Positions 19,318-22,949 of a DNA stretch of 49,505 nt are shown here, one piece after another. The DNA comes from Microcystis aeruginosa Ma_SC_T_19800800_S464 (GTDB lineage Bacteria; Cyanobacteriota; Cyanobacteriia; Cyanobacteriales; Microcystaceae), in NCBI GenBank assembly GCA_007095785.1, contig SFBL01000045.1, positions 1 to 49,505 of the forward strand. The letters run 5' to 3'. Made by a program: the position numbers and the translations under genes. The notes beneath the pieces are model-generated. The model searched no databases, had not been told where the DNA came from, and saw nothing but the letters and a program-made list of their open reading frames with translations. The first letter of the stretch is position 1; the number at the start of each line of letters is the position of its first letter.

Positions 19318-20667
19318 GTGACTTTTAACCCTCACCATTGTCATAACGAAAGGGAAGTGGAGAGTAAACTAATTGTTCAGTATTTACTCCCCAAACTAGG
19401 GTACAATGCCGAACATTGGTATCAACAAGTTAGCTTCGGTAAAGTCCGCTTAGATTTCCTTGTTTCCGCTCAAAAACCTATCAACAAAAAGCAGTTTTTA
19501 TCCTCTCACTGTCTAATTATCGAGGCTAAAAACCCCAGAGAAAAGCTGATTAATCATCGTCACCGTTTAGGTTATTATCTCAACTACTTTAAAGTGCAGT
19601 GGGGATTATTAACCAATGGTGATGAGATTCTACTTTATCAAAGGAAACCCGATAAAATTTATTTAGTTTTTAGATGTTCTGGGTTAGAAATTGCCTCTCA
19701 CTTAGAACAGTTAAAATCTCTGATTGGCTACGAAACCTTATCTTTAGGTATTCAACCGCTCAATTCTCCAACAATCAACAACAGAAATCCCATGAAAACC
19801 ATCGCAATTTATCATCATAAAGGTGGTGTTGGTAAAACCACCGTCGCTACCAATCTAGCGGCAGCTTTGAGTAAAAAAGGCAAGCGAGTATTATTAATTG
19901 ATATTGATGCTCAAGCTAATAGTACCTTTGCCGTTGGTTTAATTAAGTTTCAATTCGATGATGACGATGATTTAAAAGATAAAAACGTCTTTCATTTGCT
20001 AGATAACAGTAACCGCATTTTTATTGAGAATATCGTCAGAAAGTCTCAAGGATTCAATCATCCAGAAATTGATGTTATTCCCTCTCACATATCTTTAATT
20101 GCTAACCAAGCTAAAATTAAAGATAATGCAGCGGTATTTGCTAGATTGGCAAGAAAATTAGAGAAAGTAAATAATCAATACGATATTGTAATTATTGATG
20201 CACCTCCCGCACTTGATTTATATGCACGCATTGCTTTAATTGCCGCTGATTATCTGATAATTCCTTCTGATCTTAAACCGTTTTCTAATCAAGGATTAGA
20301 TAGCGTTAAAAACTTTGTTCAAGAAGAAATCAATGAAAGTCGTGGAGATTTGGGCAAACCAACACTACAAATTTTAGGCGTTTTACCTTCCAAAATTTCC
20401 ACCCACGCTCAATACTTAAAATATAATTTTCCCAAACAAAAACAAGTGATTCCAGACAAATATAGTTTACCCTTGATGGAATCAACTATCTCGGAAAGAA
20501 TGCCTTTATCTCGCTGTATAAATCAATACGTTACCGTGGGAAATTTAGAAATTCCTGCCCCCCAATCTATAATTGATTATGCCGAACATCAAGCTGATGC
20601 GGGAGTATCAGCAGCAGAATTTGAAGCCTTAGCAATTGAAGTTTTAGCTAAAATAGGAGTTAAATAA
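19318..20667 (+). CDS. HsdR_N-type nuclease domain fused to ParA-like ATPase
   Basis: A 449-aa two-domain protein. Residues 1-140 resemble the type I restriction HsdR N-terminal nuclease domain: Glu15, then VRLDFLV with Asp46, then IIEAKNP with Glu69-x-Lys71, all PD-(D/E)xK residues kept. Residues 159-449 are a ParA/Soj-type ATPase with deviant Walker A KGGVGKTT (Lys168, Lys173), DIDAQANST and IIDAPPALD. Start is GTG; Met159 at 19792 could be an internal start yielding a free ParA. The ParB-like gene starts right after its stop. ParA-type dimers act as DNA-bound switches; adding a nuclease suggests a plasmid or defence function, which is inference. Confidence 0.8.
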   Translation: MTFNPHHCHNEREVESKLIVQYLLPKLGYNAEHWYQQVSFGKVRLDFLVSAQKPINKKQFLSSHCLIIEAKNPREKLINHRHRLGYYLNYFKVQWGLLTNGDEILLYQRKPDKIYLVFRCSGLEIASHLEQLKSLIGYETLSLGIQPLNSPTINNRNPMKTIAIYHHKGGVGKTTVATNLAAALSKKGKRVLLIDIDAQANSTFAVGLIKFQFDDDDDLKDKNVFHLLDNSNRIFIENIVRKSQGFNHPEIDVIPSHISLIANQAKIKDNAAVFARLARKLEKVNNQYDIVIIDAPPALDLYARIALIAADYLIIPSDLKPFSNQGLDSVKNFVQEEINESRGDLGKPTLQILGVLPSKISTHAQYLKYNFPKQKQVIPDKYSLPLMESTISERMPLSRCINQYVTVGNLEIPAPQSIIDYAEHQADAGVSAAEFEALAIEVLAKIGVK

Positions 20668-21321
20668 ATGTGGAAATTTTTACGAGTCGATATTACTGAT
20701 ATTAATCCTTCCGTTGCCAGAGAAACTTTCTCTGAAACTGAATTGGAAAATTTAGCCGATCTTATTATTGAAATGGGTGGAATTATTCGCCCTGCTATTC
20801 TCAAAAAAGCTGATAATAAAAAAGTCGATGAACGTTATAATATTATCAGTGGAGATTTAGAATATTATGCTTCTGTCATCGCTAATAAGAAAGTTCCTGA
20901 CATCGAGATGATTAACGCTTTTGTAGTTGATAAAGAAGCGGAGAATATCGCTTTAATGCAGTTATTATCTCGAGATAAAATAATAGATAATCCTCTAGAA
21001 TTGAGGATGAGTAATCTTGAAAAACGATTAGAAACCCAGTTACAAGCAATCCGAGAGGAGTACCAAAAAGAAATCAAAAGACTGGAAGAAAAAATTCCTC
21101 CTCCTCCTCCTTCTTCTAAGTCGATTTTAGAGCTTTTAAATACCTGTGATGCTAATCAGCTTAAAAAAGGGGGAATTCTACCTGCATCTGTTAATGACTT
21201 TCTGAAAAAACGTTCAGAAAAGCCCTTTGACTCTTTGGAAGATATCCTAAATCGCCCAGTGTCAGGAGTTAAAGAGAAAAGATTAATTAAGCTTGTCGAT
21301 TATCTGCTGACTTACAATTAA
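20668..21321 (+). CDS. ParB_N-like protein with coiled coil and HhH-like C-terminus
   Basis: A 217-aa protein whose ATG follows the ParA fusion stop with no gap, so they are an operon. Residues 1-100 resemble a ParB/sulfiredoxin-like domain (VDITDINPSVARETFSE, ENLADLIIEMGG, YNIISGDLEYYASVIA), though the GxRR box is replaced by SGDLEYY. Residues 110-145 form a coiled coil, then a proline run (PPPPPSSK). The last 65 residues resemble a ComEA-type helix-hairpin-helix repeat (LLNTCDANQLKKG ... FDSLEDILNRPVSGVKEKRL) and may bind DNA. A tail-like copy lies at 22151. Confidence 0.75.
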   Translation: MWKFLRVDITDINPSVARETFSETELENLADLIIEMGGIIRPAILKKADNKKVDERYNIISGDLEYYASVIANKKVPDIEMINAFVVDKEAENIALMQLLSRDKIIDNPLELRMSNLEKRLETQLQAIREEYQKEIKRLEEKIPPPPPSSKSILELLNTCDANQLKKGGILPASVNDFLKKRSEKPFDSLEDILNRPVSGVKEKRLIKLVDYLLTYN

Positions 21322-21451: not shown

Positions 21452-22104
21452 ATGACAACTACTCCAGTAATTGCTGCTTCTTTAACAATTCCCCCCCTAG
21501 AAAACGGCGATAAATTAACTCGATGGGAATGGAATTAATTGAAGGAATTGTTTATATGGCATCTCCCTTGAGAATTACCCAACATGGTGAACCCCACGCG
21601 CATATTATGTTATGGTTGGGTTTTTATAAAGCTTTTACCCCCTATCTGCAATTAGGGGATAATTGTACCGTGAGATTAGATATTGATAACGAACCCCAAC
21701 CGGATGCCCTATTAAGAATTGACAAGGGAGGACAATCGATAATTAGTCAAGATGATTATGTAGAAGGCGCGCCAGAATTAATTGTCGAAATTGCCGCTTC
21801 TAGTGCTTCCTACGATGTGCATCAAAAATTAAATGTCTATCGTCGCAATCAAGTCCAAGAATACTTAGTCTGGCGGTTTTATGAACGAGAATTTGATTGG
21901 TTTCGGCTACAGGCAGGAGAATATATTAAACTAGAACCCGATAGTGATGGCATAATACGCTCCCAAATCTTCCCCGGTTTATGGCTAGATAAAAACGCTT
22001 TATTAATGGGCGACTTAGGAAAAGTTTTAGTGATTTTGCAACGGGGGTTAGAAACAGCAGAACATCGAGATTTTGTCAATAAATTAACTGCCAATCACAG
22101 CTAG
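21452..22104 (+). pseudogene. Uma2 family endonuclease, copy 1, frameshifted
   Basis: The original start at 21452 reads MTTTPVIAASLTIPPLENG, then DKLTRWEWN and stop: a 40-bp deletion after GGGAAT, seen by comparison with copy 2, shifts the frame. The rest stays open from ATG 21523 (MGMELIEGIVYMA) to 22104 with the nuclease residues intact (PQPDALLRI, APELIVEIAASSASYDVHQK). That shorter frame has no good ribosome site and lacks the helix before ELIEG, so function is doubtful. The last 435 bp are about 97% identical to copy 2. Confidence 0.7.
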
Positions 22105-22355: not shown

Positions 22356-22949
22356 ATGCCCCATCTCAAAAAAGCGGAATTAATTGAAGGAATTGTTTAT
22401 ATGGCATCTCCCCTCAGATTTGAAAGTCACGCCGAGCCTCATGCTAATATTATCGGATGGTTAGCTCTCTATAAAGCGGCGACTCCTGGTGTTAGATTGG
22501 GTGATAATGCCACCGTGAGATTAGATATTGATAACGAACCCCAACCGGATGCCCTATTAAGAATTGAAAAGGGAGGACAATCGACAATTAGTCAAGATGA
22601 TTATGTAGAAGGCGCGCCGGAATTAATTGTCGAAATTGCCGCTTCTAGTGCTTCCTACGATGTGCATCAAAAATTAAATGTTTATCGTCGCAATCAAGTC
22701 CAAGAATATCTAGTCTGGCGGTTTTATGAACAAGAATTTGATTGGTTTCGGCTACAGGCAGGAGAATATATTAAACTAGAACCCGATAGTGATGGCATAA
22801 TGCGCTCCCAAATCTTCCCCGGTTTATGGCTAGATAAAAACGCTTTATTAATGGGCGACTTAGGAAAAGTTTTAGTGATTTTGCAGCGGGGGTTAGAAAC
22901 AACAGAACATCGAGATTTTGTCCATAAATTAACTGCCAATCACAGCTAG
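22356..22949 (+). CDS. Uma2 family endonuclease, copy 2, N-terminally shortened
   Basis: A 197-aa frame beginning MPHLKKAELIEGIVYMASPL with the full PD-(D/E)xK core (PQPDALLRI, APELIVEIAAS, YDVHQKLNVYRR). Relative to copy 1 it keeps the ERRYQAMPHLKKAE segment but has a 75-bp deletion that removed the original start and first 20 codons, so translation must start at 22356 or a non-ATG codon. The family usually needs about 20 residues more at the N-terminus. Possibly functional, possibly decaying. Confidence 0.65.
   Translation: MPHLKKAELIEGIVYMASPLRFESHAEPHANIIGWLALYKAATPGVRLGDNATVRLDIDNEPQPDALLRIEKGGQSTISQDDYVEGAPELIVEIAASSASYDVHQKLNVYRRNQVQEYLVWRFYEQEFDWFRLQAGEYIKLEPDSDGIMRSQIFPGLWLDKNALLMGDLGKVLVILQRGLETTEHRDFVHKLTANHS

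Follow-up and report, generated by a model that had tools for sequence, protein, structure and literature searches.

The window, by which we mean the whole stretch of 49,505 nucleotides of Microcystis aeruginosa DNA analysed here, carries a gene pair that, on the sequence evidence, holds up as real: a nuclease-type domain fused to a ParA ATPase, with a ParB_N-like partner encoded directly downstream. We tentatively favour, with something short of even confidence, the view that a ParA/ParB-like pair forms the base of a chromosomal DNA-targeting nuclease module here, with foreign DNA as its likeliest target. Both reading frames proved to lie where the first-pass annotation had placed them (Table 1), the TAA stop of the fusion being followed directly by the ATG of the partner with 0 bases between. 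The intact ParA Walker A that it had reported is also present, in the deviant form (KGGxxKT) as KGGVGKTT, and Pfam AAA_31 matches the fusion protein from residue 159 to 339 at 1.4e-51. Microcystis-named relatives of the fusion are 86-98% identical to it.

Table 1. Features of the nuclease-ParA gene and its partner in the window.
Feature	Position	Strand	Basis or remark
Fusion gene, 449 aa: PD-(D/E)xK-type nuclease domain and ParA ATPase	19318..20667	+	GTG start; ORFs, Pfam, alignment
HSDR_N-type domain, residues 1-150	19318..19767	+	Pfam profiles, conserved residues
HSDR_N-type domain residues	E11 19348-19350; D46 19453-19455; E69 19522-19524; K71 19528-19530; R83xxxY87	+	
Codon 159 (ATG), a candidate start for free ParA within the gene	19792..19794	+	Start codon in 55/55 family members read
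ParA ATPase domain, residues 159-449	19792..20664	+	Pfam AAA_31
Walker A KGGVGKTT, residues 168-175	19819-19842	+	
ParA middle block, residues 217-335	19966..20322	+	Falls into three allele classes within Microcystis and into divergent ones in other genera
Partner gene, 217 aa: ParB_N-like box, long helix and HhH-like tail	20668..21321	+	ATG start
Partner box, residues 1-95: ParB/Srx fold, G-x-x-EYYA replacing GERR	20668..20952	+	Foldseek, profile alignment
Residues 109-142, predicted as a long helix and likely a coiled coil	20992..21093	+	AlphaFold2 model
HhH-like tail, residues 153-216	21124..21315	+	Microcystis has two alleles, other genera different tail types

Adjacency of the two genes goes beyond chance. 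Our set of 55 N-terminal domains comprises 51 uninterrupted frames, including L127, which was retained despite its degenerate N-terminal domain, and four N-terminal pieces from split or contig-end genes (L110, L116, L129 and L130, the first two being split genes); L081 and L082, on the same contigs as L011 and L012, stand outside it. Counting sequences, which are not independent events, a partner ORF of the same cluster follows 53 of these 55 domains, in 52 cases at -74 to +33 nt. As for the two exceptions, L129 stops at a contig edge, and BLAST detects a partner-like ORF for L130. Within the open-licence literature listings we recognised no description of a nuclease-ParA fusion.

An HsdR_N-like PD-(D/E)xK domain on the ParA chain, with D46, E69 and K71 in place, had been proposed from the window alone, and the wider family bears this out. 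HSDR_N_2 covers residues 17-113 of the window protein at 1.4e-4 (22.3 bits, below the 25-bit Pfam cut-off) and matches 42/42 family members scanned (best 2.9e-8), HSDR_N matching 41 of these 42. Among the 55 aligned domains E11 is kept in 55, E15 in 53, D46 in 54, E69 in 55, K71 in 54 and Y87 in 55, and the single row without D46 and K71 is L127. Judged by the four Microcystis pairs computed (dN 0.011-0.033 versus dS 0.10-0.24), the nuclease domain is under purifying selection in Microcystis. AlphaFold2 returned a poor model of the fusion from 12 sequences (mean pLDDT 39.9), so the nuclease assignment rests on sequence profiles and conserved residues. A profile search for PDB relatives of the domain brought up 7ue2, a repeat protein, which we rejected (1e-5, in four weak stretches), the rest being chance matches.

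The suggestion that Met159 might give a free ParA from the same gene has become a real possibility. A start codon stands at this position, the start of ParA, in all 55 sequences (53 ATG, 2 GTG) behind a linker that varies, and beside the nuclease domain the fusion itself starts with TTG in 30, GTG in 15 and ATG in 10 (L110 is counted as TTG; a GTG stands one codon nearer). Over 40 non-redundant members the mean anti-Shine-Dalgarno energy ahead of codon 159 is -3.2 kcal/mol, versus -1.6 +/- 0.27 in synonymous-codon resampling, which gave a value as low in 0/500; the average is -1.3 at 210 other internal Met codons and -3.8 at the fusion starts. A ribosome-binding-like sequence is found ahead of codon 159 in part of the family, and in G019 a nuclease-less duplicate has an ORF that starts at the codon-159 ATG itself, with GAAGAGG upstream. 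In the window there is no Shine-Dalgarno-like site at the internal ATG (0.2 kcal/mol) or at the GTG start (0.1 kcal/mol), so that in Microcystis it is the codon by itself that makes the case for two products. Two further nuclease-ParA families help to read the codon. In the second, Met occupies the corresponding position in 0/28 members read (of 30, L155 and L169 giving no motif; 8 of the 28 are from Microcystis), which argues that a Met at the ParA start answers no structural need; in the third, a smaller one, Met is found at or near it in 6/7, and part of the Met signal could therefore be ancestral. Taken together, one gene may yield both a nuclease-ParA and a free ParA.

Two products would also suit a non-cutting tether, in which the nuclease fold would only bind DNA, replacing the N-terminal DNA-binding domain of a long ParA, and the two forms would tune binding or oligomerisation in the manner of IncC1 and IncC2. 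RK2 IncC provides the precedent: alternative starts give two forms of this ParA, and the N-terminal domain of IncC enhances DNA binding (PMC2666795). The internal start codon, kept in every sequence, fits this idea. We nonetheless hold it to be improbable, as D..ExK is kept in 54/55 domains over deep divergence and would be needless for DNA binding alone.

The partner had been described as ParB_N-like with an HhH-like end, and both parts of that description stand. ParB_N matches residues 5-97 at 4.3e-7, above the Pfam cut-off; in the tail HHH_3 is weak (0.039), and the partner-family profile reaches PDB 2i5h there at 7.1e-6. The AlphaFold2 model of the partner (mean pLDDT 78.5) consists of a box, a long helix and a small helical tail, and with it Foldseek retrieved Noc, ParB, KorB and sulfiredoxin (E 4.5e-5 to 7.8e-4 among the best 17 matches) at a TM of about 0.31-0.35 by query length, with mainly the box aligning. 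GERR is the CTP-binding motif of ParB; it occurs in 0/44 partners, and profile alignment sets GERRW of Noc opposite GhleYY of the partner. The NCBIfam ParB and Noc models align over the first ~95 positions only, which leaves no sign of a central parS-binding domain. A search of the window's own genome with the canonical parS 16-mer gave 0 matches at up to 2 mismatches, other site types being possible, and no clustered repeats or iterons were found at the locus. As far as these profiles and searches tell, the partner fails as a true ParB, with neither GERR, nor a central helix-turn-helix domain, nor a canonical parS found. A partition system that licenses cutting, as raised in the first-pass annotation, may still be at work, though with a partner of this kind.

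Tails differ by lineage: most are HhH-like, Crocosphaera and several further lineages have a WxAxEYW type, and at least L106 has one of Rho_N/SAP-like type; regular expressions left 14/44 tails untyped, and outside Microcystis the types were judged by eye and are uncounted. Elsewhere in the window's genome ParB_N matches a 93-aa ORF, which we read as sulfiredoxin-like, and, below threshold, the partner of a second-family fusion (C77).

A plasmid derivation, which had been entertained for the pair, gained no support from the searches. The family was not found among 72,556 plasmid records: none of the best 5000 matches to the window's fusion covers 80% of the query, and coverage is at most 71% among the 40 matches listed. 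L086, a member of another family, had no match at 1e-25, and the nuclease domain alone returned four Phaeobacter HsdR_N proteins. The window's partner found four weak relatives (30.6-38.2%), and the partner L084 had 0 matches at 1e-3. The fusion is present at full length in 12/12 Microcystis genomes, and 8/9 Microcystis loci compared have the window's upstream flank in common. On the strength of the plasmid searches we reject a plasmid origin for the window family, and, given the same absence and the same 12 genomes, its fusions are not confined to plasmid partition loci.

The main rival explanation is chromosome maintenance, in which the pair would position or segregate the copies of a polyploid chromosome with a divergent adaptor in place of ParB and the nuclease would trim or resolve DNA under ParA control. 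The DNA meant is entangled, broken or surplus copies. Presence in every Microcystis genome, behind a flank shared by 8/9 loci, speaks for it, as do recurrent neighbours in other lineages, for example a divergent ParA and, in six loci, a gene that we read as isoleucyl-tRNA-synthetase-like. It also gains from the genome's other ParB_N matches being only the sulfiredoxin-like ORF and the sub-threshold C77 partner, with canonical parS not found. Against it, the partner was found in only 56/386 cyanobacterial genomes (E<=0.001) and the fusion or its ParA in only 62/386 (E<=1e-30). We judge chromosome maintenance somewhat unlikely but rank it a close second: all 12 Microcystis genomes carry the fusion, for the most part at a single site, and the pair outlives loss of the nuclease.

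That loss can be read from a tree in which seven ParA genes of the family without the nuclease nest among fused members, with at least three changes; the tree leaves aside L131 and L138, whose ParA genes are distant or broken and lack the nuclease domain. We read the nuclease-less members as probable losses, at least three of them. The partner is kept beside 5/7 of these genes, and as ParA, mostly with its partner, stayed where the nuclease went, the pair should have a use without cutting.

The four neighbour genes scanned in the window encode a phosphopantetheinyl transferase, a beta-lactamase-fold protein and two Uma2 proteins, with no defence genes, HsdM or HsdS among them. From PADLOC the fusion drew matches to PDC-M28B alone, confined to its ParA portion (38.7 and 17.9 bits), and the partner drew none, and no catalogued defence family spans the fusion protein.

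Within Microcystis the middle of ParA and the partner box fall into divergent allele classes. When the window was compared with nine Microcystis loci, identity was 94-100% over the nuclease DNA and, in eight of them, 87-100% over the upstream flank (L013 being the one with a different flank); the ParA middle dropped to 63-77% in 4/9, with parts of the partner dropping too. In three between-class pairs dS over residues 217-335 is 0.93-1.40, versus 0.05-0.26 in the other four blocks of the gene. Twelve distinct Microcystis genomes (L014, 100% identical to G389 over 2 kb, was omitted) fall into three ParA-middle classes of 7, 4 and 1, with 64-68% identity between classes and 88-100% within, and three box types agree with these classes in 12/12. 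Each of the two larger classes contains both Microcystis tail alleles (8 and 4 overall), as 5+2 and 3+1, and the lone genome of the third class has the second allele.

The same divergence recurs across lineages. Between genera the ParA middle is 63-71% identical, a divergence as large as that between the Microcystis classes. Some distant loci share the block closely: L084 and L085 (genera g19 and g9) are 92% identical in the ParA middle and 80% in the nuclease, and L017 and L083 are 95% and 76% (L083 is of genus g3 and L017 of unclassified genus, its nuclease being nearer to Crocosphaera loci at 82-86%). Eight same-genus pairs from three more genera show the reverse, with 80-91% in the nuclease and 57-71% in the ParA middle. 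Mean identity over 861 pairs is nearly equal for the ParA middle (60%) and the nuclease (58%), so the block is not merely fast-evolving. Apparently, then, the ParA middle and the partner box form a multi-allelic cassette exchanged between lineages, beside a nuclease that is constant within Microcystis, and the pattern looks like allele exchange under diversifying selection. Such equidistant cross-lineage alleles would be unexpected for a housekeeping interface, which counts against chromosome maintenance. From the allele pattern we infer contact between the ParA middle and the box.

The second nuclease-ParA family showed no comparable mosaic in seven Microcystis comparisons. It was found in 42/386 genomes (E<=1e-40), including the window's own at G000:C77:17114-18445, where a nuclease-type domain and ParA are followed by a ParB-box-like partner with a Rho_N/SAP-like tail, and an ATG lies near the fusion start in 27/28 members. 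In a ParA-domain tree of the three fusion families the long branches meet, and the families may go back to a single fusion or to several. Two Nostoc plasmids carry the second family together with ParM and other ParA-type genes, which makes it unlikely to be their only segregation system; annotated ParB genes are present on one of them.

These plasmids, and a ParA middle and box that co-vary like cognate partition pairs (12/12), would suit an anti-plasmid or incompatibility device, in which box/ParA pairing would recognise the partition complexes of incoming plasmids and destroy or displace those plasmids. We consider such a device very improbable, since no plasmid partition protein with the box alleles came to light, the plasmid relatives of the partner being the four weak matches already mentioned and L084 having none at 1e-3, and since it was a phage rather than a plasmid that yielded the free box.

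When viral contigs were scanned with the alignment of partners, one relative emerged, a complete 100-aa gene that consists of the box alone. It is 47-54% identical to its ten best cyanobacterial partners over 84-97 residues, has AAAGGAG, a Shine-Dalgarno-like sequence, upstream and is followed after the stop by a terminator-like hairpin and T-run. On its 89.7-kb contig, 20 proteins scanned gave matches including a portal, a major head protein, an endolysin, an integrase and a ParB-like protein, and the fusion had no match in this record, which may be a fragment. A second box lies within ORF27L of Anabaena phage A-4L, an annotated tail protein next to an 'internal protein' gene, with 43.8% identity over residues 31-90 of partner L093 (E 2e-5). 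The profile search was topped (1.2e-8) by PDB 9k3a_B, a tail protein of 1717 residues that has the same letters in its box; from letters and length it is probably this A-4L protein. Neither the fusion and nuclease alignments nor partner L084 picked up a relative in the viral contigs, and the solo box found only its own contig. Against 50,697 phage records the solo box had only two weak Enterococcus phage matches, A-4L not being among them. The fusion matched 122 records of the phage collection, none covering 80%, and the 20 of these that were listed match the ParA part. The economical reading, from two genomes, is that the phage solo box may act as a decoy for the host ParA. Chromosome maintenance leaves box-only phages unexplained.

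In the mechanism that we infer for a nuclease module aimed at foreign DNA, the weak GTG or TTG start would give the nuclease-ParA and the internal ATG at codon 159 the free ParA, and the two would form ATP-bound mixed dimers on DNA. The partner would dock by its box onto the middle of ParA and hold the target DNA by its tail, which is HhH-like in Microcystis and of other types elsewhere. Docking would couple ATP turnover to placement or licensing of the nuclease there, and the likeliest use would be clearing phage or incoming DNA. A defence or anti-plasmid role, as suggested at the outset, is consistent with the evidence. The foreign-DNA reading is favoured by D, E and K residues kept in 54-55 of 55 domains in a nuclease under purifying selection, by ParA-middle and box alleles that are divergent and co-vary throughout the 12 Microcystis genomes, and by the box-only phage gene and the A-4L box, together with a fusion not found on plasmids. 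Several observations pull against defence: defence genes are typically patchy, and this one is in all 12 Microcystis genomes behind the same flank in 8/9; the nuclease was lost at least three times while ParA stayed; and PADLOC gave only PDC-M28B on the ParA part, with no defence genes among the four neighbours scanned. The window's starts without a Shine-Dalgarno-like site, the Met in 6/7 of the third family and the poor model of the fusion also weigh against our preferred explanation, and its phage support is limited to two genomes, in one of which the box sits inside a structural protein.

One further reading, unlikely as a whole in our estimation, is of a ParA-based immune system in which the partner would aim the nuclease-ParA, phages would counter with a box decoy and hosts would swap the cassette. 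The box would then be the contact to ParA and the tail would sense DNA, with the decoy supplied as a free gene or within a virion protein. Such a system would explain a constant nuclease beside a polymorphic pairing surface. Were the foreign-DNA reading true, a ParA/ParB-like pair would have been turned from moving DNA to aiming a nuclease, with a single gene supplying both motor-plus-nuclease and motor alone, an idea that the polymorphic ParA-middle/box cassette and the solo box from the phage open to direct testing. If chromosome maintenance were correct instead, a nuclease on a segregation-type ATPase would bear on how polyploid cyanobacteria handle many chromosome copies.

Among known systems, the pair shares with ParABS (ParA/Soj, ParB/Spo0J, Noc) a ParA ATPase with a deviant Walker A, encoded immediately before a ParB_N-like partner whose box is modelled as a ParB/Srx fold. 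It differs in that its ParA bears a nuclease-type domain, its partner lacks GERR (0/44) and covers no more of the ParB and Noc models than their N-terminal part, and no canonical parS was found in its genome. RK2 IncC/KorB (PMC2666795 for IncC) offers a close parallel to the predicted long and short ParA, from one parA gene with a conserved internal start; here, however, the extension is a nuclease-type domain and the partner resembles KorB in the box only. The HSDR_N-type domain, with D..ExK and R/K/QxxxY and a fold assigned from sequence profiles, is shared with the HsdR of type I restriction, whereas the motor is a ParA ATPase (AAA_31) in place of a superfamily 2 helicase and no HsdM or HsdS lies among the four neighbours scanned. 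The second nuclease-ParA family is alike in layout, with a nuclease-type domain on ParA and then a ParB-box-like partner, and is set apart by the lack of the internal Met (0/28), the lack of a mosaic and its presence on two plasmids.

Two Uma2-type genes in tandem directly follow the nuclease-ParA fusion and its ParB_N-like partner on the 3' side in the window, and comparison by eye showed the C-terminal halves of these two genes to be near-identical. In many loci a divergent stand-alone ParA lies close to the fusion, mostly on the opposite strand. In five loci (see table) the pair also has close to it a partner-like protein of the kind belonging to the third fusion family, built of a box, a coiled coil and a SAP-like end; no ParA gene of its own was seen beside this protein in those loci.

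The source genome (G000) encodes a second nuclease-ParA fusion, deeply different from that of the window. Relatives were found in 42 of the 386 cyanobacterial genomes; two Nostoc plasmids carry them as well.

Features accompanying or resembling the fusion and its partner
Feature	Location	Strand or remark
Tandem Uma2-type putative endonuclease genes	window 21523-22104 and 22356-22949	
Second nuclease-ParA fusion	G000:C77:17114-18445 = L002 1216-2550	-
Partner of second fusion, ParB-box/Rho_N-like	L002 512-1219	
ORF27L, 'tail protein', Anabaena phage A-4L	L181:1975-7128	
Partner-like protein, third family's kind	L111, L114, L115, L119, L120	2.5-5.2 kb downstream of fusion start
Gene for partner's ParB-like box only	L182:3001-3303	viral contig, 89.7 kb
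Divergent stand-alone ParA, ~294 aa	L086:7755-8636; similar places in other loci	

The partner's box has phage counterparts. A viral contig carries it as a box-only gene, possibly a decoy, that has a ribosome-binding-like site and a terminator-like hairpin of its own, and a box resembling the partner's was found within ORF27L of Anabaena phage A-4L, which an 'internal protein' gene adjoins.
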